Source of the DNA: an uncultured bacterium
GTDB taxonomy: Bacteria; Pseudomonadota; Gammaproteobacteria; Burkholderiales; Burkholderiaceae_C
Assembly (NCBI GenBank): GCA_903928495.1
Contig: CAIYQZ010000046.1
Coordinates: forward strand, 1-64,000
Length of the DNA: 64,000 nt
Reading direction: 5' to 3'
Below, piece by piece: positions 36,309 through 46,150 of the stretch. A program made the position numbers and the translations under genes. How positions within the stretch are numbered: the stretch's first letter is position 1; every line of letters starts with the position of its first letter. Under the pieces are notes generated by a model. It did no database searches. It was not told where the DNA came from and worked only from the letters and a program-made list of their open reading frames with translations.

Positions 36309-38651
36309 TCAGAGGCAGTCGTGTTTGCCCTGCAGCCAGTCGGCCAAGGGCACCGGTTCACTGATGGCATAACCCTGGCTTTCTTCGATGCCGAGCGCTG
36401 TGACCTCAACCCTCAGTGCGGGCGAGCTGACGTATTCAGCTACCGTGGTCATGCCCAGGCTGTGAGCCACTTTGACCATCGACTCGACGATGACCCGATC
36501 CACACCCCCGCCCTGCACCAGCGGCTGGATGAAGCTTCCATCAATTTTGACGCTGTCCACCGGAAACCGCTTCAGGTAATCAAACGTGGCGATGCCTGTT
36601 CCGAAGTCGTCAATGGCCACCTGGCAACCCAGCTTGCGCAGGGCCGTGAGTGTTTGGGCCGCTGAGTCCAGGTCTGTCATGGCCATGCTTTCGGTCACTT
36701 CGAAAACGAGGCGCTCGGCGCTGATGGCGTACCGCTGTAGCAGGTTTGCCACCCAGCTCACCAGCTGATCGTCCATGACGGTCGGACCACTCAGGTTGAT
36801 GGCACATCGTGCACCCGGTCTGGATGTGGGTGATGCCATGGCCTGCAAGGTCATTTCAAGTACGGCCCTGTCGAGTTGCGGCATGAGGCCGGTCCGCATG
36901 GCGGGCGCCATGAACACGGCGGGCGTCAGCAGTGCACCGTCACCATCCCGCAACCGCACGAGTATTTCGGCTTTTGGCTGCGCAGGTGTCGGGGCGTGGC
37001 AATCGTTCGATACGATGGGTTGCGCCATCAGGACCAGGGAATGGCCTTCAATGGCTCGGCGGACTTTCTCTGCCAGGACCGACTCGTTGCGCAGTGCTTC
37101 CACCGCTGCTGCGGATATCTCCACCACCTCCAAACGGCGGAACTGCTGGGCACGGAACTCCGCTTGCACCAACAGCCCCAGTTGCATTTGTGCCGAACAG
37201 GCTTGCGCCAACGGGTAGTGAGCCAACGCCCCTGACACGACCCACGGGCTTGACCCCTCTGTGGTGTGGGCTCCGGCGCACACCCCGCTGATGCCGTCCA
37301 GCAGCGCCGATTGCTGGTGTGCCGCGCCCAACCACAATCCCCTGAACACCCCCAGGCCAGTGCGACTCCACCACACGTTGTGAGGCAGGGTGCGAAGCCG
37401 GTCCGACATGTCAAGGTCACGCGTGTAGAGGTCATTGAATCCGCTGCTCAGGTGCCTTTGCCTGGACGGCCCGGAACACACACTGACCAGCAGTCTGACC
37501 TGCCCCCCGGGCTGTCCCTCGTCCATGGGCGCGTCGAGTTTTTTGAACAATGCCGCTTCGTTTCCCAGCCCTGTCAAGGGGTCGATCAGCGCTGCGCTGG
37601 CCAGACGCTGCTCGGAGCGGCGGCGTTCAGCCATGGATGCAGCCACCACCAGCAACACACCGGAGCCTGCCAGCAGGTAGAGGATGAGGGTCAGTGGCAA
37701 GGTGTCGTCGCCTGACCATTCAGGTTGCCGCTTCAGGTAGGCCAGCGTGAACAGCACCAGCGCTGCGGCACCCATGAGCATCGTGTGGATGAGGAAGGGT
37801 GGCGCACGCAGTGCAAGCAACACCAGCAAGGGCATCAGCCCATACAGTGCGGCTTGTGCCAGGTCTGGCCGATCTGCCAACAACATGCTGACCACGGCCA
37901 CCGTCAGCAACAGGGTGAAGAAAATCCCCACGCGGTGCGTCAGGGCTGCCTGCAGCAGTTGCTTCGGGCGATCGACATGCTTGCCGTCGCGCTGCCGCAT
38001 GGTCAGCCATGAGGCCACCGGCGCAAACAGCCAGGCACCGCTTGTTTCCAGCAACCAGTAGGTGCTCAGTACCCACACCACGGGCAGGTTGGCGGGCCAA
38101 TGACCCGTCCACCACAGGCCTGCCGTTCCCACCAACGCTGCCAGCACCGACCCGCCGGCCGCCTGCGCCCTCAATATGGCCAGCAGACTTGGCAAGCTGG
38201 CAAATGGCTGCGAGCCATCGGCCCACAGGCCCGGCGTGCGCCAGCGCACCCATGCCGGGCCACACATGGCCGCAACGGCAGTCCACAGCGCTGCAGACAG
38301 TGACCAGTCTCGAAACAACATGGCCCACAGGCCCACCCCCAAACCAGTGGCTGCCAGACCGGCCAGGGCGTATCGGACAGCCAGCGCCAGCCCGATGCCC
38401 GCCGACGGCCAGAACAATGCAAAACCTGCCTCATCAGGGCGCTGTACGTACGACACAGCGGTCAGGCCGGCCAGGCCCAAGGCCACCCATGACAGGCGAA
38501 GCCAGTCTTTCGCTGTGAGTGGTTCTGTGTGTGGATGCACTGCCGTGGACAGCGTTGGAAAAAAGGGCCGATGGGTTGAGGTTGAGCGGAAAAGGAAATC
38601 AGTCTTCCAGCACGCGCACCTTAACGCTTTTGCCTTTGATGCGCCCGGCAT
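36309..38651 (-). CDS. membrane EAL phosphodiesterase with degenerate GGDEF
   Basis: A 780-aa track ORF starting inside dbpA; a GTG at 38540 (VHPHTEPLTAKDWLRLSW) is a plausible later start. A MASE1-like membrane domain of about eight helices is followed by a degenerate GGDEF. It keeps IDPLTGLGNEAALFKKL, but TGLGVF stands where GGDEF is expected. A C-terminal EAL domain (~530-775) follows. The EAL motif is EILVR and catalytic DDFGTG is present, so phosphodiesterase activity is plausible. The degenerate GGDEF may serve as a GTP-sensing or structural module. Confidence 0.87.
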   Translation of the reverse strand: MPGASKAKALRCACWKTDFLFRSTSTHRPFFPTLSTAVHPHTEPLTAKDWLRLSWVALGLAGLTAVSYVQRPDEAGFALFWPSAGIGLALAVRYALAGLAATGLGVGLWAMLFRDWSLSAALWTAVAAMCGPAWVRWRTPGLWADGSQPFASLPSLLAILRAQAAGGSVLAALVGTAGLWWTGHWPANLPVVWVLSTYWLLETSGAWLFAPVASWLTMRQRDGKHVDRPKQLLQAALTHRVGIFFTLLLTVAVVSMLLADRPDLAQAALYGLMPLLVLLALRAPPFLIHTMLMGAAALVLFTLAYLKRQPEWSGDDTLPLTLILYLLAGSGVLLVVAASMAERRRSEQRLASAALIDPLTGLGNEAALFKKLDAPMDEGQPGGQVRLLVSVCSGPSRQRHLSSGFNDLYTRDLDMSDRLRTLPHNVWWSRTGLGVFRGLWLGAAHQQSALLDGISGVCAGAHTTEGSSPWVVSGALAHYPLAQACSAQMQLGLLVQAEFRAQQFRRLEVVEISAAAVEALRNESVLAEKVRRAIEGHSLVLMAQPIVSNDCHAPTPAQPKAEILVRLRDGDGALLTPAVFMAPAMRTGLMPQLDRAVLEMTLQAMASPTSRPGARCAINLSGPTVMDDQLVSWVANLLQRYAISAERLVFEVTESMAMTDLDSAAQTLTALRKLGCQVAIDDFGTGIATFDYLKRFPVDSVKIDGSFIQPLVQGGGVDRVIVESMVKVAHSLGMTTVAEYVSSPALRVEVTALGIEESQGYAISEPVPLADWLQGKHDCL

Positions 38652-39996
38652 TCAACCGGCTGGCCACTTGGGCTGCAATGCTTCTGTCCACCGCCACGTA
38701 GGTGGACCACTCGTTCACATTAATTTTGCCCACCTGCTCGCGGGTGTAGCCCAGGTCTGCGGTCAGTGCGCCCAGCACGTCGCCGGGGCGGATTTTTTCT
38801 TTGCGGCCACCCTGGATGTGCAGCGTGACCATGGGCGGCATCAGCGGGCCTTGGCCGGTGGGGGTGAGTTCGGCCAGTGGGCTCCACACGGTTTCCTTCT
38901 TCTGCAGCACCTCGATCTTGCCCACGTTGCCCATCTCGTTCATGCTGGCCAGGTTGAGCGCCAGCCCGGTTTCACCCGCCCGGCCGGTGCGGCCGATGCG
39001 GTGGATGTGCACTTCGGAATCAGGCGTCACGTCTACGTTGATGACGCAGGCCAAGGATGCAATGTCCAGACCGCGCGCGGCCACGTCGGTGGCCACCAGC
39101 ACAGAGCAGCTTTTGTTGGCAAAACGCACCAGCACCTGGTCGCGCTCGCGCTGTTCCAGTTCGCCAAACAGGGCCAGGGCGCTGTGGCCTTCGGCGCGCA
39201 GCACGTCCACCAGGTCGCGGCACTGGGCCTTGGTGTTGCAAAACGCCAGCGTGCTGGCGGGGCGAAAGTGCGCCAGCAACTGGCCCACGGTGTGCAGGCG
39301 CTGGCTGTCTTTCACTTCGTACCAGCGTTGCTCGATCTGGTTGCCGGTGTGCTGGGCTTCCACCTTCACGGTGACGGGGTCGCGCATGAACTGGGCGCTC
39401 AGCTTGGCAATGCCTTCGGGGTAGGTGGCCGAAAACAGCAGGGTCTGGCGGGTTTTGGGGCACTGTTTGGCCACTTTCACGATGTCGTCGAAAAAGCCCA
39501 TGTCCAGCATGCGGTCGGCTTCGTCCAGCACCAGGGTGTTGAGGGCCTCCAGGTCCAGGCTGCCGCGCTCCAGGTGGTCTATCACACGGCCGGGCGTGCC
39601 CACCACGATGTGTGCGCCGTGTTCCAGGCTGGCGATTTGCCCACGAAGGGGCACGCCACCGCACAACGTCACGACCTTGATGTTGTCTTCAGACCGCGCC
39701 AGGCGGCGGATTTCGGTGGTGACCTGGTCGGCCAGTTCGCGCGTGGGGCACAGCACCAGCGTTTGCACGGCAAAGCGGCGGGGGTTCAGGTTGGCCAGCA
39801 GCGTGAGCGCGAAGGCAGCGGTTTTGCCGCTGCCGGTTTTGGCTTGGGCAATGATGTCTTTGCCCAGCAGCGCCGCAGGCAGGCTGGCCGCCTGGATGGG
39901 CGTCATGGCGGTGTAGCCCAGGGCCGTGAGGTTGGCCAGCGTAGCGGGGGTGAGGGGGAGGGTGCTGAAGTCAGCGGAACCGGCAGGAGAGGTCAT
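38599..39996 (-). CDS. dbpA: ATP-dependent RNA helicase DbpA
   Basis: A 465-aa DEAD-box protein: Q-motif MTPIQAASLPAAL, Walker A AQAKTGSGKT, PTRELA, VGTPGR, VLDEADRML, FSATYP, ARGLDI and HRIGRTGRAG. The C-terminal RNA-binding domain (KEKIRPGDVLGALTADLGYT, VNEWSTYVAVDRSIA) is that of DbpA, which targets hairpin 92 of 23S rRNA during large-subunit assembly. The 198 bp between it and the sulfatase gene hold no recognised gene, only a short CAGCT-TCGG-AGCTG hairpin near 40032-40045. Confidence 0.95.
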   Translation of the reverse strand: MTSPAGSADFSTLPLTPATLANLTALGYTAMTPIQAASLPAALLGKDIIAQAKTGSGKTAAFALTLLANLNPRRFAVQTLVLCPTRELADQVTTEIRRLARSEDNIKVVTLCGGVPLRGQIASLEHGAHIVVGTPGRVIDHLERGSLDLEALNTLVLDEADRMLDMGFFDDIVKVAKQCPKTRQTLLFSATYPEGIAKLSAQFMRDPVTVKVEAQHTGNQIEQRWYEVKDSQRLHTVGQLLAHFRPASTLAFCNTKAQCRDLVDVLRAEGHSALALFGELEQRERDQVLVRFANKSCSVLVATDVAARGLDIASLACVINVDVTPDSEVHIHRIGRTGRAGETGLALNLASMNEMGNVGKIEVLQKKETVWSPLAELTPTGQGPLMPPMVTLHIQGGRKEKIRPGDVLGALTADLGYTREQVGKINVNEWSTYVAVDRSIAAQVASRLNAGRIKGKSVKVRVLED

Positions 39997-40194
39997 GCAG
40001 GATTATCGGTGGTGGGTGTGTCAGGCCCTCCCCAGCTTCGGAGCTGTTCAATTTGGTCTGTCGTGCGTTCACGAGACCATCAGTCTTCGTCGGCATCAGG
40101 CACAACGCGGGACTTGCAATCACTCTTTGAAAAAATGGCAGATGTGCTCCCGACGCATGGGCGCACGCATATACCGAAGGCGCATTTTAGAGCA

Positions 40195-41634
40195 CTAGTG
40201 CCCAGGTACCGGGCTCGCTCCCGCAGGGCCTTTTTGCAAAGCGGCCTCGCGGCCACCAAACCGTGCAATGAGCGCGTCTTGATCTGCCTTGGCCCGTTGG
40301 TCAACGGCTTTCGGATCCAGCATCTGCGTCAGAAGTGTCTCCATCTGCTCGCACACAGAACGATGTTCCTCTTTCATTGCGAGGTTTGAACATTGTCCGG
40401 GATCGACGGCAATATCAAACAGCTCGGGCTCGAACCCCACGTAGTGGTGATAAGTCCAACGACCTTGCCGCACCAGATAGGCCGCGCTTGGCGACCCGAC
40501 CGCGTGATATTCACTGAAACCCACACGTTGTGCGTCGTCGGCCTCATTCGCAATGGCGATCAGCGAACGGCCAGGCAACGAGCTGTCTGCTGGGAGACTG
40601 GCGCCATCAAGCAGCGTCGGCCCGATGTCGATCAGGTTGGTATTGGTGTTGCAAACCTTACCTTCTGGAATCCCAGGGCCCGCCAAGATCAATGGAACGT
40701 TGGTGGCTTCGCGATACAGCGTCGATTTATTCCACATGCCGCGAACACCTTGGTTGTCGCCGTGATCGCTGCTCATGATCACGCGTGTTTGCCCTTGTAA
40801 TCCGGACTGCTGGAGTGCACCAAGTACTTTGCCGATTTGCTCATCTATGAAGATCGTCAAGGCGTAATAGCAAGCCAATGCCAATCGGCGGCGTTCAGGA
40901 GTGCCCAATTCAGAATCGGCATTTGAGAAGTCTGCATGCCGCTGCACCCACGGATGACGCCGGTAACCATCCTGCGGATGCAGCCTGGGGGCAGGAATGG
41001 CACTCACGTCAATGAGATCAAGGTATCGCTGTGGCACGACCAGTGGGAAATGCGGAGCCACGAAGCCGACAAACAGCGTCCATGGGGCAGCATCTTTCTC
41101 GGCTGCGCGATCTTGTAGCCACTGCGCGGCATGATCGGCTGACTGCATGTCATAGCGGTTATAGCTTGACTCGCCGGCGCCAAGTTCGTCGAACAAGTGA
41201 GAGGTGCGAGGCTCGATCGGAAGCGGGTTGCGCACCGAGCCCCAAACCTGCCCAATGCCGTGTGCCAGATGCAAAGGATCGTGTTGCACGGAAAAACCGG
41301 TGGGTGCGGTCGCGCTTACAAAATGGAGCTTGCCTACGGACTCCACCCGATGTCCTGCCTTTTGCAGTGCGTGCCCCCAAGATGGAACTCGGCCATCGTA
41401 GCCCATGGCATTGTCCCAATAGCCAATGTTGTGGACCCACCGCCCCGTTGCCAAGGCCGCGCGGGCTGGCACGCAAATAGGAGATGGCGTCAGGGCCTGA
41501 GTGAATCGCGTGCCACGCGCAGCCAGCGCATCCAAATGCGGCGTTTTGACGAAGGGATGCCCTGCGCAGCCCATGGCATGCGCGTCTTGTTCGTCAGTCA
41601 GCAAGATGAGTGTGTTGTAGTGTTGGTGCGTCAT
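40195..41634 (-). CDS. type I sulfatase, cytoplasmic
   Basis: A 479-aa sulfatase/alkaline-phosphatase-fold enzyme. The metal site begins ILLTDEQDAHAMGC. The formylglycine Cys is in SPICVPARAALATG (CxPxR). Other features are GYWDNAMGYDG, VESVGKLHFV, FVGFVAPHFPLVVP and a second metal site SSDHGDNQGVRGMWNKSTLY. No signal peptide, so it would act on an imported sulfate ester. Resemblance to choline-sulfatase/arylsulfatase-like enzymes is general; the substrate is unknown. It is the distal gene of the reverse-strand island. No formylglycine-generating enzyme is in the window. Confidence 0.88.
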   Translation of the reverse strand: MTHQHYNTLILLTDEQDAHAMGCAGHPFVKTPHLDALAARGTRFTQALTPSPICVPARAALATGRWVHNIGYWDNAMGYDGRVPSWGHALQKAGHRVESVGKLHFVSATAPTGFSVQHDPLHLAHGIGQVWGSVRNPLPIEPRTSHLFDELGAGESSYNRYDMQSADHAAQWLQDRAAEKDAAPWTLFVGFVAPHFPLVVPQRYLDLIDVSAIPAPRLHPQDGYRRHPWVQRHADFSNADSELGTPERRRLALACYYALTIFIDEQIGKVLGALQQSGLQGQTRVIMSSDHGDNQGVRGMWNKSTLYREATNVPLILAGPGIPEGKVCNTNTNLIDIGPTLLDGASLPADSSLPGRSLIAIANEADDAQRVGFSEYHAVGSPSAAYLVRQGRWTYHHYVGFEPELFDIAVDPGQCSNLAMKEEHRSVCEQMETLLTQMLDPKAVDQRAKADQDALIARFGGREAALQKGPAGASPVPGH

Positions 41635-41717
41635 GAACTAAGGCCTTTGGAGCATCCATCTGACGGCGATGCAATAAAGGCAATCCTTTGTGTAACCCAG
41701 GCGAGAGCCATCAGCGA

Positions 41718-41892
41718 CTAAACAAATCGCTGCGGATCGATCGGCATGACATCGTGATGCCCCTCGACTTGAGCGTGTTTGAAGCGACGGTCTTTTTGAG
41801 TGCCGGTAGAGACGCTGCCACCCTGAGCTGCCTTGTATGACAAATGAAGCGCCTGCGACACCAAGCAGGGCAGCACGACGTCCCAAGTTCAT
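41718..41892 (-). pseudogene. frameshifted small Tat-signal ORF between the sulfatases
   Basis: Starting 20 bp after the upstream sulfatase, frame 1 reads MNLGRRAALLGVAGASFVIQ, a convincing Tat-type signal, then deteriorates. Another frame of the same DNA reads KAAQGGSVSTGTQKDRRF and then KHAQVEGHHDVMPIDPQRFV before a TAG, with protein-like composition. Joining them needs a single frameshift and would give a ~58-residue exported protein. It may be a broken gene, a sequencing error or coincidence. No family recognised. Confidence 0.35.
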
Positions 41893-41912
41893 AGTGAGGC
41901 TTTATCGAAAAA

Positions 41913-43484
41913 TCAAGCCGGGCCAACCGCCTCAGGCAATGGGTTTCGGATGTCATTGGGGCGGCTCATCAGCCGCTGCATCAACTCGTCACGCAAACCA
42001 CGGTGGTTTGGATCGTCAAAACGGTTGATGCATTCGCAGGGATCGTTGTCCAAGTCATACATCTCACCTACGCCACTGCCCAGCTCAAGGGTGAGCTTGG
42101 CGGTGCGCGTTCGCACTGTGCGCAGATCCAAAGCCACGCCGCAGCGCGATGGCCCCAGTCGCCACTCGTTGTAGGCATGATCGCGTGGTGCATCGTGCAT
42201 ACCCTCAAGGAGGCTGCGCAGGCTTGTGCTGTGAATGGCAGAGCGCACTGGTGTCGATGCGTAGTCGCCAAACGTGGCCGCCAAATCGAGTGTGGAGACT
42301 GGATCAGTGATCACACGGTCGACTGCAACACCCGGTCCTCGCATGATCATGCCAACGCGCAACAGGCCTTCATAGTGCATCGGGCCCTTGAGCATCAGGC
42401 CATGGTCGCCGAGCAATTCACCGTGGTCAGACGTGAAAACCACCAAGGTGTTGTCCGCCAAGCCGGCGTCTTGAAGCGCATTGAGCATGCGCCCAACCTG
42501 ATGATCAACCAAAGAAATCATGCCGTAATAGTTGGCAATGATCTCTCGCAACTGCCCGTCGGTTTGGACCGGCATGCGCGAATATTCCTCACGAACTTTT
42601 CGACTCTCGGGCGTTCCACCCGGTGTGTTTTCCAGCGCTGCGCGGTGCCACCATGGCCGGCGCTCCAGATCACGGCTGCGATGCTCCGGAAGGTCCACGT
42701 CCTCTGGTCGATGCATCCAGCACCAAGGCGCAGGGGCATCGAAAGGATGATGGGGATCTGCCATGGACACCCAGGCACAAAACGGCTGAACCGGCGCTCC
42801 AGCGTGCTTGGCGTTGCGTTGGTGGCGGCCTTGCTCGCTCAGGTACGCAACTGTTCGATCGCCAACCCAGGTGCTGTTGTGCCACGCTGTTGGCAAGGCG
42901 CTGTTGTGGGTTTGGGCGGCAGTGGTGTTGGGCGCAAACCTCTTTGCATACATCGCGTCCTTCACGTCGCCCAGTCCATCTGCGTGGTACCAGCGTTCGT
43001 AATGCAAGCCACCAGGGCTTCGCTCAGGCAGCCAGTAGTTGTGCCCCAATTGCATCAGCTCGACGTTTTCAAAGCCCATGTATGGACCTTGCCAATCATC
43101 AGCAAACAGATGGGAGCTTGGAATGTTTTCGCAACGCCCGGTCGGTCGGTTGCCGTATGAGTGATTGCTGGAGAAATGTGCCTTGCCAATGAATCGGGTG
43201 TCGTAGCCCGCTTTGGCCAGCGATCCTGCAAAGCCTTGTGCAGCGATGCTTTCTTCCAGATCGATGCCGTTGTCACACACCCCGCTGGTGAGCGGCAGCA
43301 TGCCCGTGAGCACGGCGCTCCTGGCGGGCATGCACACAACATTCGGAGTGATGCAGTTGGAAAATCGCGTGCCTTGCCGCGACAGCAGGTCCAGATGCGG
43401 CGTTTGGACGCGTCGCCCCTCAAAGCCAAAGCAATCGCCTCGGTGCTGATCGCTCATGATGAGCAAAATGTTGGGAGCTGTCAT
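41913..43484 (-). CDS. type I sulfatase, cytoplasmic (second)
   Basis: Start set at MTAPNILLIMSDQHRGDCFG (523 aa). The metal/active-site motifs are MSDQHRGD and the formylglycine Cys in NVVCMPARSAVLTG. Others are RFIGKAHFSSNH, WVSMADPHHPFDAPAPWC, FTSDHGELLGDHGLMLKGPM, and a C-terminal YDLDNDPCECINRFDDP typical of arylsulfatases. No signal peptide. It is only distantly like the neighbouring sulfatase, so this is a pairing rather than a recent duplication. It follows the TctC gene by 24 bp and is presumably co-transcribed. Confidence 0.9.
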   Translation of the reverse strand: MTAPNILLIMSDQHRGDCFGFEGRRVQTPHLDLLSRQGTRFSNCITPNVVCMPARSAVLTGMLPLTSGVCDNGIDLEESIAAQGFAGSLAKAGYDTRFIGKAHFSSNHSYGNRPTGRCENIPSSHLFADDWQGPYMGFENVELMQLGHNYWLPERSPGGLHYERWYHADGLGDVKDAMYAKRFAPNTTAAQTHNSALPTAWHNSTWVGDRTVAYLSEQGRHQRNAKHAGAPVQPFCAWVSMADPHHPFDAPAPWCWMHRPEDVDLPEHRSRDLERRPWWHRAALENTPGGTPESRKVREEYSRMPVQTDGQLREIIANYYGMISLVDHQVGRMLNALQDAGLADNTLVVFTSDHGELLGDHGLMLKGPMHYEGLLRVGMIMRGPGVAVDRVITDPVSTLDLAATFGDYASTPVRSAIHSTSLRSLLEGMHDAPRDHAYNEWRLGPSRCGVALDLRTVRTRTAKLTLELGSGVGEMYDLDNDPCECINRFDDPNHRGLRDELMQRLMSRPNDIRNPLPEAVGPA

Positions 43485-43508
43485 GGCGACCCTGTGCTGC
43501 ACGGTGGA

Positions 43509-44465
43509 TCAATCTTCAGACTTGTATCCCGTCGCTTTGACCACTGGGCCCCAGCGGTCAAAGTCCGCTTTCAGGTGGAGCGCCAAATCGGCTGAGGATG
43601 TCACGTCAGAGTTGAATTCCAGCTTCTCGATCGCAGCGATCAGGCGCGGCTGCCTGGCAGCCGTCATCAGTGCTTTCTCAAGTTCAGCAAGCGTGGCTTT
43701 CGGCGTTTTGCTTGACGCAAACATGCCAAAGATCTCGGTCAACTGCAGTTCGGGGTAACCTTGTTCCTTGAAGGTTTGTACGCCCGGCAAGCTTGGCAAT
43801 GCCTTATCACCGGTAAACCCCAAGATCCGCAATTTGCCGGATTTGTGATGTGTGATCAAGTTGGGCAAGGTCGTGGCCAGGGCCGGAATGGTGCCGCCCA
43901 ACACATCAGTCATGGCGAGCGCGCCACCGCGATAAGGCACATGCTGAAAATCAATGCCTGCCATCCGCCCAAACATCACACCCATGAAATGCATGGCCGT
44001 CCCTGCGCCGGGTGTGCCGTAGCTGGCTTTGCCAGGATTGGCCTTTGCCCAATCCACAAACTCTTTCAAGTTTTTGGCTGGCGTGGCCGGCCCCACGGCA
44101 AGGCCGAATTGGAACGAGCACACACCCGTCAGCGGCGCCAAGTCACTCAATGCATAGCGCAGTTTGGGGTAAACGTGCGGAAAGATCGTTGCATTGCCGC
44201 CTGGCATCAGGACGACAGTGCTCCCATCGGCCGGCGCAGCCAGCATCGCTTCCGTTGCAAGCTGGCCGGCAGCACCTGTGCGATTCTCGACAATCGCGTT
44301 GTAGCCCAGCGAGCGGAGTTCTTCACTGACGTGGCGGGCCACGACATCCACAGCACCGCCGGCTGGGTAGCCAACCAGGATCTTGAGTGGCTTACCTTGG
44401 CCAAAAGCCACACTGGGCAGTGCGGCAGCGCCGAGATACATCAGGGATTGCCGGCGTGTAAACAT
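43509..44465 (-). CDS. TctC/Bug family binding protein of the sulfatase island
   Basis: Start set at MFTRRQSLMYLGAAALPSVA, preceded by AAAGG at good spacing (318 aa). The signal carries RR and is Tat-like. Bug features are LKILVGYPAGGAVDVVAR, AIVENRTGAAGQLATEAM, ADGSTVVLMPGG, GTPGAGTAMHFMGVMF and HVPYRGGALAMTDVLGGTI. It probably captures the sulfated substrate, or its organic part, in the periplasm. No tctA/tctB permease genes are present here. It is first in the reverse-strand operon and is divergent from the Crp/Fnr regulator. Confidence 0.92.
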   Translation of the reverse strand: MFTRRQSLMYLGAAALPSVAFGQGKPLKILVGYPAGGAVDVVARHVSEELRSLGYNAIVENRTGAAGQLATEAMLAAPADGSTVVLMPGGNATIFPHVYPKLRYALSDLAPLTGVCSFQFGLAVGPATPAKNLKEFVDWAKANPGKASYGTPGAGTAMHFMGVMFGRMAGIDFQHVPYRGGALAMTDVLGGTIPALATTLPNLITHHKSGKLRILGFTGDKALPSLPGVQTFKEQGYPELQLTEIFGMFASSKTPKATLAELEKALMTAARQPRLIAAIEKLEFNSDVTSSADLALHLKADFDRWGPVVKATGYKSED

Positions 44466-44550
44466 GATCAGCCTTTCATTCGGGGGTAACTGAACTGGGT
44501 ACCCAGAGGGTGCGTGGATGGCGATCGTCATCGAATGCCATGCCGCTTAC

Positions 44551-44566
44551 TGTTACCGCGGTAACA
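44551..44566. promoter_or_regulatory. perfect palindrome TGTTACCGCGGTAACA
   Basis: A 16-bp perfect palindrome lies in the divergent region between the TctC gene (86 bp from its start) and the Crp/Fnr gene (8 bp from its ATG). The TGTTA-N6-TAACA geometry equals the CRP-type TGTGA-N6-TCACA layout with one changed base per half. It is the natural candidate operator for the adjacent regulator, probably with autoregulation. A LacI-type (GntR-like) operator is the alternative, but no such regulator is nearby. Confidence 0.7.
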
Positions 44567-44574
44567 ATATCGGG

Positions 44575-45294
44575 ATGACCCCTAGTGCTTCCATCAGCTT
44601 GCCAAGCGTTGGCCACGAGTTGCTCGTGAGCCGGAGCATGAGCAGGCAGCTTGCGCAGGCGCTTGCAGCACCGCTTGCGTTGGGCAGTCGAGTGCTTCAT
44701 CGCTTCGAAGTGGGCGCCACGCTCTGCAAGTCGGGAGATCACATCACCCAATTGCCTTTTGTCATCAGTGGTCGGCTTGATGCAATCGTTCATGTCCCAG
44801 GCGCGCAAGGGGGGCAAATTGTCCCGATCGCATTTGGAGCAGGCGAAGTAGCGTTTCTGTCGTATTTGTTCAATCAGTTGCCCAGTGGTGTTGACCTTGT
44901 GGCCGGTGAGCTCACTGCCATCAAATGGGTACCGGTGGCTGAAATCGAATCGGCTTTGCTCAAGGATCCAGCGTTGTTGATCATGTTGGTTCGTTTCCTG
45001 GGGCAGCGCTTGCGCGAGGTGCAGGCGCGAGAGCGTGCATGGGCTTCGCGTGGCGTGCAACATCGTTTGTGTGCAGGCTTGGCGCGACTGCTGGTGGATT
45101 TGCCCAGGCGCAAGGATAAGGATGGTCGCTTGATTGTCGAATTGACACACGAACAGTTGGCTGCCCGATGCGGCATCAGCCGGCCGAAAGCATCCATCGC
45201 GCTTAAACATTTGGAGCGGTCCGGACTCGTGGTTTTAGGGCATCGGTCGATTGAAGTACTTGACCCGATTGCTCTGACAAAGCTGACGTCCTGA
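44575..45294 (+). CDS. Crp/Fnr family transcriptional regulator
   Basis: Start set at MTPSASISLPSVGHELLVSR (239 aa), because the track start would put the palindrome inside the coding region. It has a cyclic-nucleotide-like domain (residues ~30-150, with LPFVISGRLDAIVHVPGAQG) and a C-terminal winged helix: LTHEQLAARCGISRPKASIA, LKHLERSGLVVLG. There is no N-terminal Cys cluster of FNR type, so oxygen sensing through an iron-sulfur cluster is unlikely. It probably controls the divergent TctC-sulfatase genes. Confidence 0.87.
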   Translation: MTPSASISLPSVGHELLVSRSMSRQLAQALAAPLALGSRVLHRFEVGATLCKSGDHITQLPFVISGRLDAIVHVPGAQGGQIVPIAFGAGEVAFLSYLFNQLPSGVDLVAGELTAIKWVPVAEIESALLKDPALLIMLVRFLGQRLREVQARERAWASRGVQHRLCAGLARLLVDLPRRKDKDGRLIVELTHEQLAARCGISRPKASIALKHLERSGLVVLGHRSIEVLDPIALTKLTS

Positions 45295-45399
45295 GCATCT
45301 GCCAGGCCCGAAGGGGTTCTTGCGAGGCCGACCAACTTGGAACGTGCTCGCACAACTGAGATGTCTCAGGTGGTCTTCGCTTTGATGTGAAAAATAAAT

Positions 45400-45441
45400 A
45401 AAAATAAGCTCTTACGCTTATCCAGTAAGCTCTGATAGCTA
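45400..45441 (-). repeat. dispersed repeat TAGCT-N17-AAGCG, copy D
   Basis: On the reverse strand this copy begins TAGCTATCAGAGCTTAC, continues with TGGATAAGCGTAAG and ends TTATTTTT. It is intergenic, between the convergent Crp/Fnr and exonuclease genes, at the right edge of the low-GC island. The remaining ~190 bp of this gap show no gene. Confidence 0.65.
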
Positions 45442-45529
45442 CGAATTATGCTTCCCTTACGGGGCGCCCGTTGGACGCTTTGGTTGCCCCCAACCATCCA
45501 CCAACCCACCCACGTGGCTTCCCGACTAC

Positions 45530-46150
45530 TCACCGCCCCAGCAAAGCCCGCAGCTTGATGAACGCCAGCGCCGCCATGGTGGCGTCGTTCACGGGGTTGT
45601 GGGCTTTGCGCTCGGGCAGACCCAGGTCGGCCATCAGGGTGGCCAGACGCAGGTCGATGTGGGCGTTGGGGTTTTGCTTGTACTTGTGGTCGTAGTACAG
45701 ACCCGACACCTCGATTTGCTCGTTGGGCAGCGGTATGCCGATGACCGGCTGTACCAGTCGGTTGAGCAGGGCCACATCAAATTCCAGGTAGTAGCCCACC
45801 AGCGGGCGCGAGCCAATGAAATCCAGCACGCGTTGCGCCACTTCCTGCGGCGGCAGCCCGTGGTCGGCCAGGTCGCTTTCGCGCACCTGGTGGATGCGCA
45901 CACTCTCGGCGCCCATGGGGCTGCGGTCTGCGTCGGGCCGCACCAGCAGTTCCAGCCGCTGGCTGGTCAACACGCGTTGGCCACTGATGCGCACCGCGCC
46001 CACGCTGATGATGTGGTCGCGTTCGCGGTCGAGGCCGGTGGTTTCGCAGTCGATGCTGACCCACTCACCGGGCGGCGGTGGGTCAAACAGACCGGCATAT
46101 TGGGGGTTGGTCAGGCGGTGGCGGTACCACGCGCGCTGCAGGCGGTTCAC
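45530..46150 (-). CDS. 3'-5' exonuclease, DnaQ/DEDDh type
   Basis: A 206-aa protein from a GTG start that overlaps the upstream gene's stop (GTGA). The DEDDh motifs are visible: SIDCETTGLDRERDHIISVG (ExoI), GYYLEFDVALLNRLV (ExoII) and KAHNPVNDATMAALAFIKLR (ExoIII). It resembles stand-alone DnaQ-like exonucleases that accompany cNMP/CBS/DUF294 proteins in many proteobacteria. The nucleic-acid substrate is unknown; a role in repair or nucleotide metabolism is inferred. Confidence 0.9.
   Translation of the reverse strand: MNRLQRAWYRHRLTNPQYAGLFDPPPPGEWVSIDCETTGLDRERDHIISVGAVRISGQRVLTSQRLELLVRPDADRSPMGAESVRIHQVRESDLADHGLPPQEVAQRVLDFIGSRPLVGYYLEFDVALLNRLVQPVIGIPLPNEQIEVSGLYYDHKYKQNPNAHIDLRLATLMADLGLPERKAHNPVNDATMAALAFIKLRALLGR

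Follow-up and report, generated by a model that had tools for sequence, protein, structure and literature searches.

The window analysed here is a 64-kb stretch of DNA (positions 1 to 64,000 of contig CAIYQZ010000046.1) from an uncultured bacterium of the Burkholderiaceae_C, and at 40195–45294 it contains an island encoding two cytoplasmic sulfatases, an exported binding protein and a regulator. This arrangement raises the question of what substrate such enzymes would receive, how it would reach them and whether the genes came to this genome as a unit. The analysis identifies a real, acquired and recurrent organosulfate cassette, which is built of known families and is short of at least one gene here. 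Judged from its sequence, it is likely an accessory cassette through which carboxylated sulfate esters would be scavenged: imported first and then desulfated inside the cell.

Genes of the island

All four open reading frames described in an earlier note on this DNA are present and their Pfam families agree with its assignments. SulA (40195–41634, minus strand, 479 aa) and SulB (41913–43502, minus strand, 529 aa as called) both belong to the PF00884 family and contain the expected CxPxR cysteine, Cys54 in a CVPAR motif and Cys57 in a CMPAR motif, respectively. Neither has a signal peptide; the N-terminus of each opens straight into the catalytic domain. TctC1 (43509–44531, minus strand, PF03401) is an exported receptor of the tripartite tricarboxylate transporter (TTT) family. 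With the sulfatases intracellular and the receptor exported, import of the substrate would be needed, as had been proposed. The Crp/Fnr-type regulator (44518–45294, plus strand, 258 aa as called) is divergent from the operon and matches HTH_Crp_2 (PF13545). Some starts are likely to lie downstream of those called: SulB probably begins at 43484, judging from an invariant methionine (M7), TctC1 probably at 44465 and the regulator possibly at 44575. The island is bordered on the left by the dbpA RNA helicase gene (38599–39996, minus strand), which is conserved in the genus, and on the right by a 3'-5' exonuclease gene (45530–46150, minus strand), which is conserved in most genus mates. Neither a permease nor a formylglycine-generating enzyme (FGE) is encoded next to the island genes, in line with the first description.

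Composition and acquisition

Acquisition had been argued from the G+C content of single 60-nt lines. The hand counts, three low lines and one of 72%, are correct and prove little: 10% of the 60-nt lines in the window have a G+C content of 53.4% or less and 39% have 60% or less. Because lines of this length vary too much, they were replaced by a control sampled across 217 kb of the genome. The 5.1-kb island has a G+C content of 0.579, compared with 0.631 ± 0.020 in windows of the same size, and none of the 540 windows outside the island was as low. The four genes also lie in the low tail of codon usage; of 168 sampled genes, no more than 8 match host usage as badly as any island gene, and no more than 5 have a GC3 as low as any of the four. 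A similar G+C content of 0.57–0.58 was found in several of the nearest cassettes, from Limnohabitans and Variovorax.

The distribution of the genes points the same way. None of the seven other genomes of the genus has SulB, and across the family it occurs in 11 of 401 sampled genomes, a count that includes the genome of the window. Other genes occupy the same interval in these relatives. Neither even composition nor genus-wide conservation at this locus, the outcomes that the earlier note had set against an acquired island, was observed, and horizontal acquisition of the cassette by this bacterium is well supported. No tRNA gene was found in the 64-kb window and no pair of direct repeats flanks the island, so this signature of mobility is missing.

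The interval between dbpA and the exonuclease gene (39997–45529) differs in gene content from one examined genus mate to the next, as if it had undergone repeated insertion and replacement. G006 has another Crp-type regulator there, G001 a zinc carboxypeptidase together with an HDOD protein, and G003 genes of the LysR, glyoxalase-fold and methyltransferase types. In G005 the interval is a short stretch, and the exonuclease gene is missing as well. In G004, the closest relative, a PLP decarboxylase gene adjoins the exonuclease gene and the contigs break within the interval.

A recurrent cassette and the scar of a fifth gene

A search for the gene set by synteny, in which the neighbourhoods of SulB relatives were read and those with at least 64% SulB identity kept, recovered 26 loci in Burkholderiales. 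The unit is therefore not confined to this genome, and the window copy is a reduced version of a larger recurrent cassette. Its gene order is Crp (divergent), TctC1, SulB, ABH1, TctC2, ABH2, SulA, in which ABH1 and the TctC2–ABH2 pair are optional. TctC1 lies immediately 5' of SulB in 24 of the 26 loci, a SulA-type sulfatase is present in 23 and the divergent Crp-type regulator in 22. Of these loci, ten include the TctC2–ABH2 pair and ten join SulB straight to SulA without ABH1. ABH1 and ABH2 are alpha/beta hydrolases, closest in sequence to the plant methylesterase/hydroxynitrile-lyase group. Three loci (L025, L029 and L035) have a different SulA (47–51% identical) and another gene order. In both the SulB tree and the SulA tree, the window is the sister of a clade rich in Limnohabitans; this agreement suggests that the two genes have moved together. 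The isolate Limnohabitans parvus II-B4 has two copies of the cassette.

The island had been described as self-contained, which does not hold, as the 278 nt separating SulB from SulA (41635–41912, minus strand) contain the scar of an ABH1 gene. About 59 nt of the gene's start and about 82–87 nt of its end are kept, about 620 nt are missing, and the frame is broken with an early stop. The scar matches ABH1 residues 228–268 with 63% identity in tblastn. Alignments of the scar with ABH1 of L046 and L013 beat all shuffles, and so does that of the 5' piece with L024. The remnants of both ends show that the window copy once had ABH1; it formerly carried at least this one further, esterase-like gene. 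The 88-nt tail of the scar gave nothing above shuffles against TctC2 or ABH2, and a past presence of that pair here is not supported.

Two further observations were made at these loci. L022 (CALQKH020000003.1) is labelled Akkermansia muciniphila; its cassette and gene order fit those of the Comamonadaceae loci L020 and L015, and the record looks misassigned. In several Limnohabitans-like genomes, a second cluster consisting of a TctC, a type I sulfatase and a SulP-type sulfate permease adjoins the cassette (L015, 495–4547, and also upstream of the cassette in L020 and L022).

A candidate operator

A perfect palindrome of 16 bp, TGTTACCGCGGTAACA, occupies positions 44551–44566 between the regulator and the receptor. 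It contains the dyad GTTAC-N4-GTAAC. With up to two mismatches, this dyad occurs in 20 of 27 cassette regions, which are not fully independent because some loci are closely related, compared with 1.7 expected and a maximum of 6 in 300 shuffles. The exact dyad is found once in the 3.79-Mb genome, where a control pattern has 9 copies; a single exact site suggests a regulator dedicated to this locus. The Crp-type protein has the C-terminal Crp-type helix-turn-helix, and Pfam recognises no cyclic-nucleotide-binding domain in it, the helix-turn-helix profiles being the only ones to match. A scan for sigma-70 promoters gave matches no commoner than in shuffles. The conservation of the site suggests that the divergent regulator acts at this palindrome to control the operon and probably also its own gene.

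Import and the marine relatives

The lack of a permease had been pointed out in the earlier note. None adjoins the unit, and neither TctA nor TctB is encoded within the cassette. This is ordinary for receptors of the family, since the genome has 18 TctC and 3 TctA genes, the latter all elsewhere. Most reported TTT receptors are likewise not encoded beside their permease (PMC8556258; PMC5812351).

More distant relatives of SulB show what an adjacent importer looks like. On seven marine Rhodobacterales plasmids, SulB (52–55% identical) comes after a complete TctC-TctB-TctA set, the middle gene of which is annotated as hypothetical in most. A SulA homologue lies within 10 kb of SulB on five of the seven. 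FGE is encoded near SulB on five as well, with the cysteine pair confirmed in four and the fifth cut at the end of the stretch. An FMN-dependent alpha-hydroxy-acid oxidase gene begins 3–12 nt 3' of SulB on five of these plasmids, and a GlcD-type oxidase gene lies near SulB on two of the plasmids and at the Rubrivivax locus L027. Elsewhere, Achromobacter and Pigmentiphaga have a LysR-TctC-SulB arrangement, and a Rhodospirillaceae relative of SulB adjoins a TAXI-TRAP importer. Taken together, these gene neighbourhoods favour a predicted pathway of import followed by intracellular desulfation. The Rhodobacterales TctC proteins bear a weak likeness to TctC1 of the window (24–40% over 60–187 residues), so the ligand may differ. 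Two of the marine plasmids also have a further sulfatase-like hydrolase beside FGE (L202, 7649–10119; L205, 10664–13263).

By analogy with the oxidases that follow SulB in the marine relatives, the released product might tentatively be taken to be a 2-hydroxy acid. The cassettes of Burkholderiales do not include the alpha-hydroxy-acid oxidase, and the suggestion for the product therefore rests on SulB relatives that are about 52–55% identical. In the proposed mechanism, TctC1, as other members of its family, would capture the anion in the periplasm, and a TctAB-type permease from another locus (the genome has three TctA genes) would import it. SulA and SulB, which have the fold and the full sets of catalytic residues, would then cleave the sulfate ester in the cytoplasm, and the freed hydroxy acid and sulfate would enter metabolism.

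Maturation of the sulfatases

FGE proteins carry the motif GGS-x2-C-x4-C-x-R, which contains the active-site cysteine pair. A PF03781 search of the whole host genome found no protein with this pair, and the lack of an adjoining FGE gene is more notable than first described. The host PF03781 proteins are SenA, EgtB and one secreted protein without the cysteine pair. The best host score for the radical-SAM maturase (TIGR03942) was 21.6 bits, against a cut-off of 349. With both maturases absent, SulA and SulB may have little or no activity. The secreted protein, encoded on contig C16, was considered as the missing FGE and rejected, since it lacks the cysteine pair and genus mates that have no SulB encode PF03781 proteins with comparable scores. 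This protein (G000:C16:436-1317, L001) has GGSWWY in place of the FGE cysteines, and the same form recurs in Comamonadaceae (L131, L132, L134 and L135).

The same lack is seen well beyond this host. The cysteine-pair motif is missing from 19 of 23 genomes with SulB homologs, the host among them, and was found in four, in a PF03781 survey that includes several MAGs and in which weaker matches were followed to the locus in part. The isolates Limnohabitans parvus II-B4, Variovorax sp. PCZ-1 and Limnohabitans Bal53 are among those without it. The radical-SAM maturase is missing from 10 of the 11 SulB genomes searched for it, with one positive. In E. coli, a Cys-type sulfatase is reported to be activated without a known maturase (Benjdia et al., 2007, as cited in PMC6189696), and unmodified choline sulfatase and phosphonate monoester hydrolase (PMH) have low but real turnover (PMC6189696). 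A bolder and rather doubtful proposal is that the Cys-type sulfatases of the cassette work without FGE or the radical-SAM enzyme, through a third maturation system or an unmodified cysteine nucleophile, and serve an undescribed route for 2-hydroxy-acid sulfate esters.

Identity of the sulfatases and alternative readings

Both enzymes have the PF00884 domain and the C/S-x-P/A-x-R motif that define type I (S1) sulfatases. The ten catalytic residues of the choline sulfatase/PMH branch, which bind the metal or the sulfate or serve as nucleophile (D14, C54, R58, N75, K102, H104, H201, D296, H297 and K309 in choline sulfatase numbering; roles from PMC5870055), are invariant in 20 SulA and 26 SulB proteins. 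The nearest solved relative of SulA, both in sequence and in predicted fold, is choline sulfatase (TM 0.85). The predicted fold of SulB is nearest to those of carrageenan sulfatase, aryl sulfatases and PMHs (TM 0.68–0.75). This proximity, and an active site common to aryl sulfatases and PMHs, would suit a reading of SulA and SulB as choline-O-sulfatases or general arylsulfatases that scavenge sulfur from no particular carboxylated substrate. However, Glu386, which recognises the quaternary ammonium group and is reported to be fully conserved in choline sulfatases (PMC5870055), is replaced in each of the 20 SulA proteins (by Val, Ala or Leu) and is absent from all SulB proteins. The two enzymes score 248 and 192 bits against the choline sulfatase model TIGR03417, far under its cut-off of 433. 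From these two results, neither is a choline sulfatase; SulA is on the same branch, minus the choline-recognition Glu. Furthermore, no bet genes adjoin the cassette and its receptor belongs to the TctC type, which makes the choline or general aryl role improbable. Still less probable is that the pair are phosphonate or phosphate mono- or diester hydrolases feeding phosphorus metabolism. The D-Q/E ... D-H metal site is common to PMHs and the fold matches are strong, but the top matches in both sequence and fold are sulfatases, the model for PehA-type hydrolases scores far under its cut-off, no phosphorus gene adjoins the cassette, and the marine relatives adjoin FGE and other sulfatases.

The scavenging of carboxylated sulfate esters, preferred here, presupposes a working copy. 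The loss of ABH1 may be a sign of decay in this copy, and the scar, together with a host that has no cysteine-pair FGE and no radical-SAM maturase over the cut-off, is what would be expected of a non-functional copy that cannot be matured and whose operon is already shedding genes. Against this stand four remaining genes that are intact, with invariant catalytic residues, and an operator-like site that is still a perfect palindrome. Intact cassettes persist in many hosts without FGE, and ABH1 appears dispensable, given the ten cassettes that do without it. A decaying copy is accordingly considered unlikely.

Relation to known systems

The island had been suggested to be an undescribed organosulfate utilisation unit. 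No dedicated import-and-desulfation unit of this composition was found in the papers searched, nor anything relevant on the pairing of TctC with sulfatases, on Limnohabitans sulfatases or on glycolic and lactic acid sulfates; as to the unit itself, it is neither unique to this genome nor complete in it. To our knowledge, the SlcHFG sulfolactate system, one of the nearest parallels by description, has no sulfatases. It appears in the TTT systems listed in PMC5812351 as an importer for a sulfur-bearing carboxylic acid, and differs from the island in that its substrate is a sulfonate (C–S bond) rather than a sulfate ester. The receptor is best compared with TphC, which works with TpiBA in terephthalate uptake by Comamonas (PMC8556258). 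Terephthalate-binding proteins of this family are the closest solved relatives of TctC1, and there too a TctC receptor is encoded in a catabolic operon with the permease genes elsewhere, although the catabolic genes are dioxygenases and not sulfatases.

Among sulfatases, BetC of Sinorhizobium/Ensifer meliloti (6FNY, 6G5Z; PMC5870055, PMC6189696) resembles SulA in its fold, in the lack of a signal peptide, and in the Cys/fGly site and all catalytic residues, with 26% identity over nearly the full length of the SulA model. In contrast to the BetC system, the window has neither Glu386 nor bet genes, and has two sulfatases and a TctC receptor instead. The best match of SulB among solved structures, in sequence (24% identity) and in fold, is the exo-2S-iota-carrageenan sulfatase PsS1_NC (6PT4). 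Its substrate is a polysaccharide, whereas no glycan-degrading genes adjoin the window cassette. The formylglycine-dependent acesulfame sulfatase of Shinella (PMC11500405) is likewise an acquired type I sulfatase, distantly related to choline sulfatase and encoded beside a second hydrolase and a regulator. It differs in having an amidase as partner, no described TctC receptor and a host with two FGEs.

Carboxylated organosulfates could plausibly make up a pool of dissolved sulfur and carbon, and for their use the cassette supplies a list of parts, a candidate operator from which a regulon could be studied and a testable guess at the substrate. The regulator–operator pair, the marine version with its full set of parts and the lack of a known maturase set it above the routine. 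It also provides a natural setting in which to ask how Cys-type sulfatases become active without a known maturase; Limnohabitans parvus II-B4, with its two copies and no cysteine-pair FGE, is a suitable host for that question. A distant TctC–sulfatase pair on a plasmid of Polaromonas sp. P1-6 (L203, 32% identical to SulB) lies after an annotated L-rhamnonate dehydratase gene, an order that hints at sugar-acid substrates for that branch.
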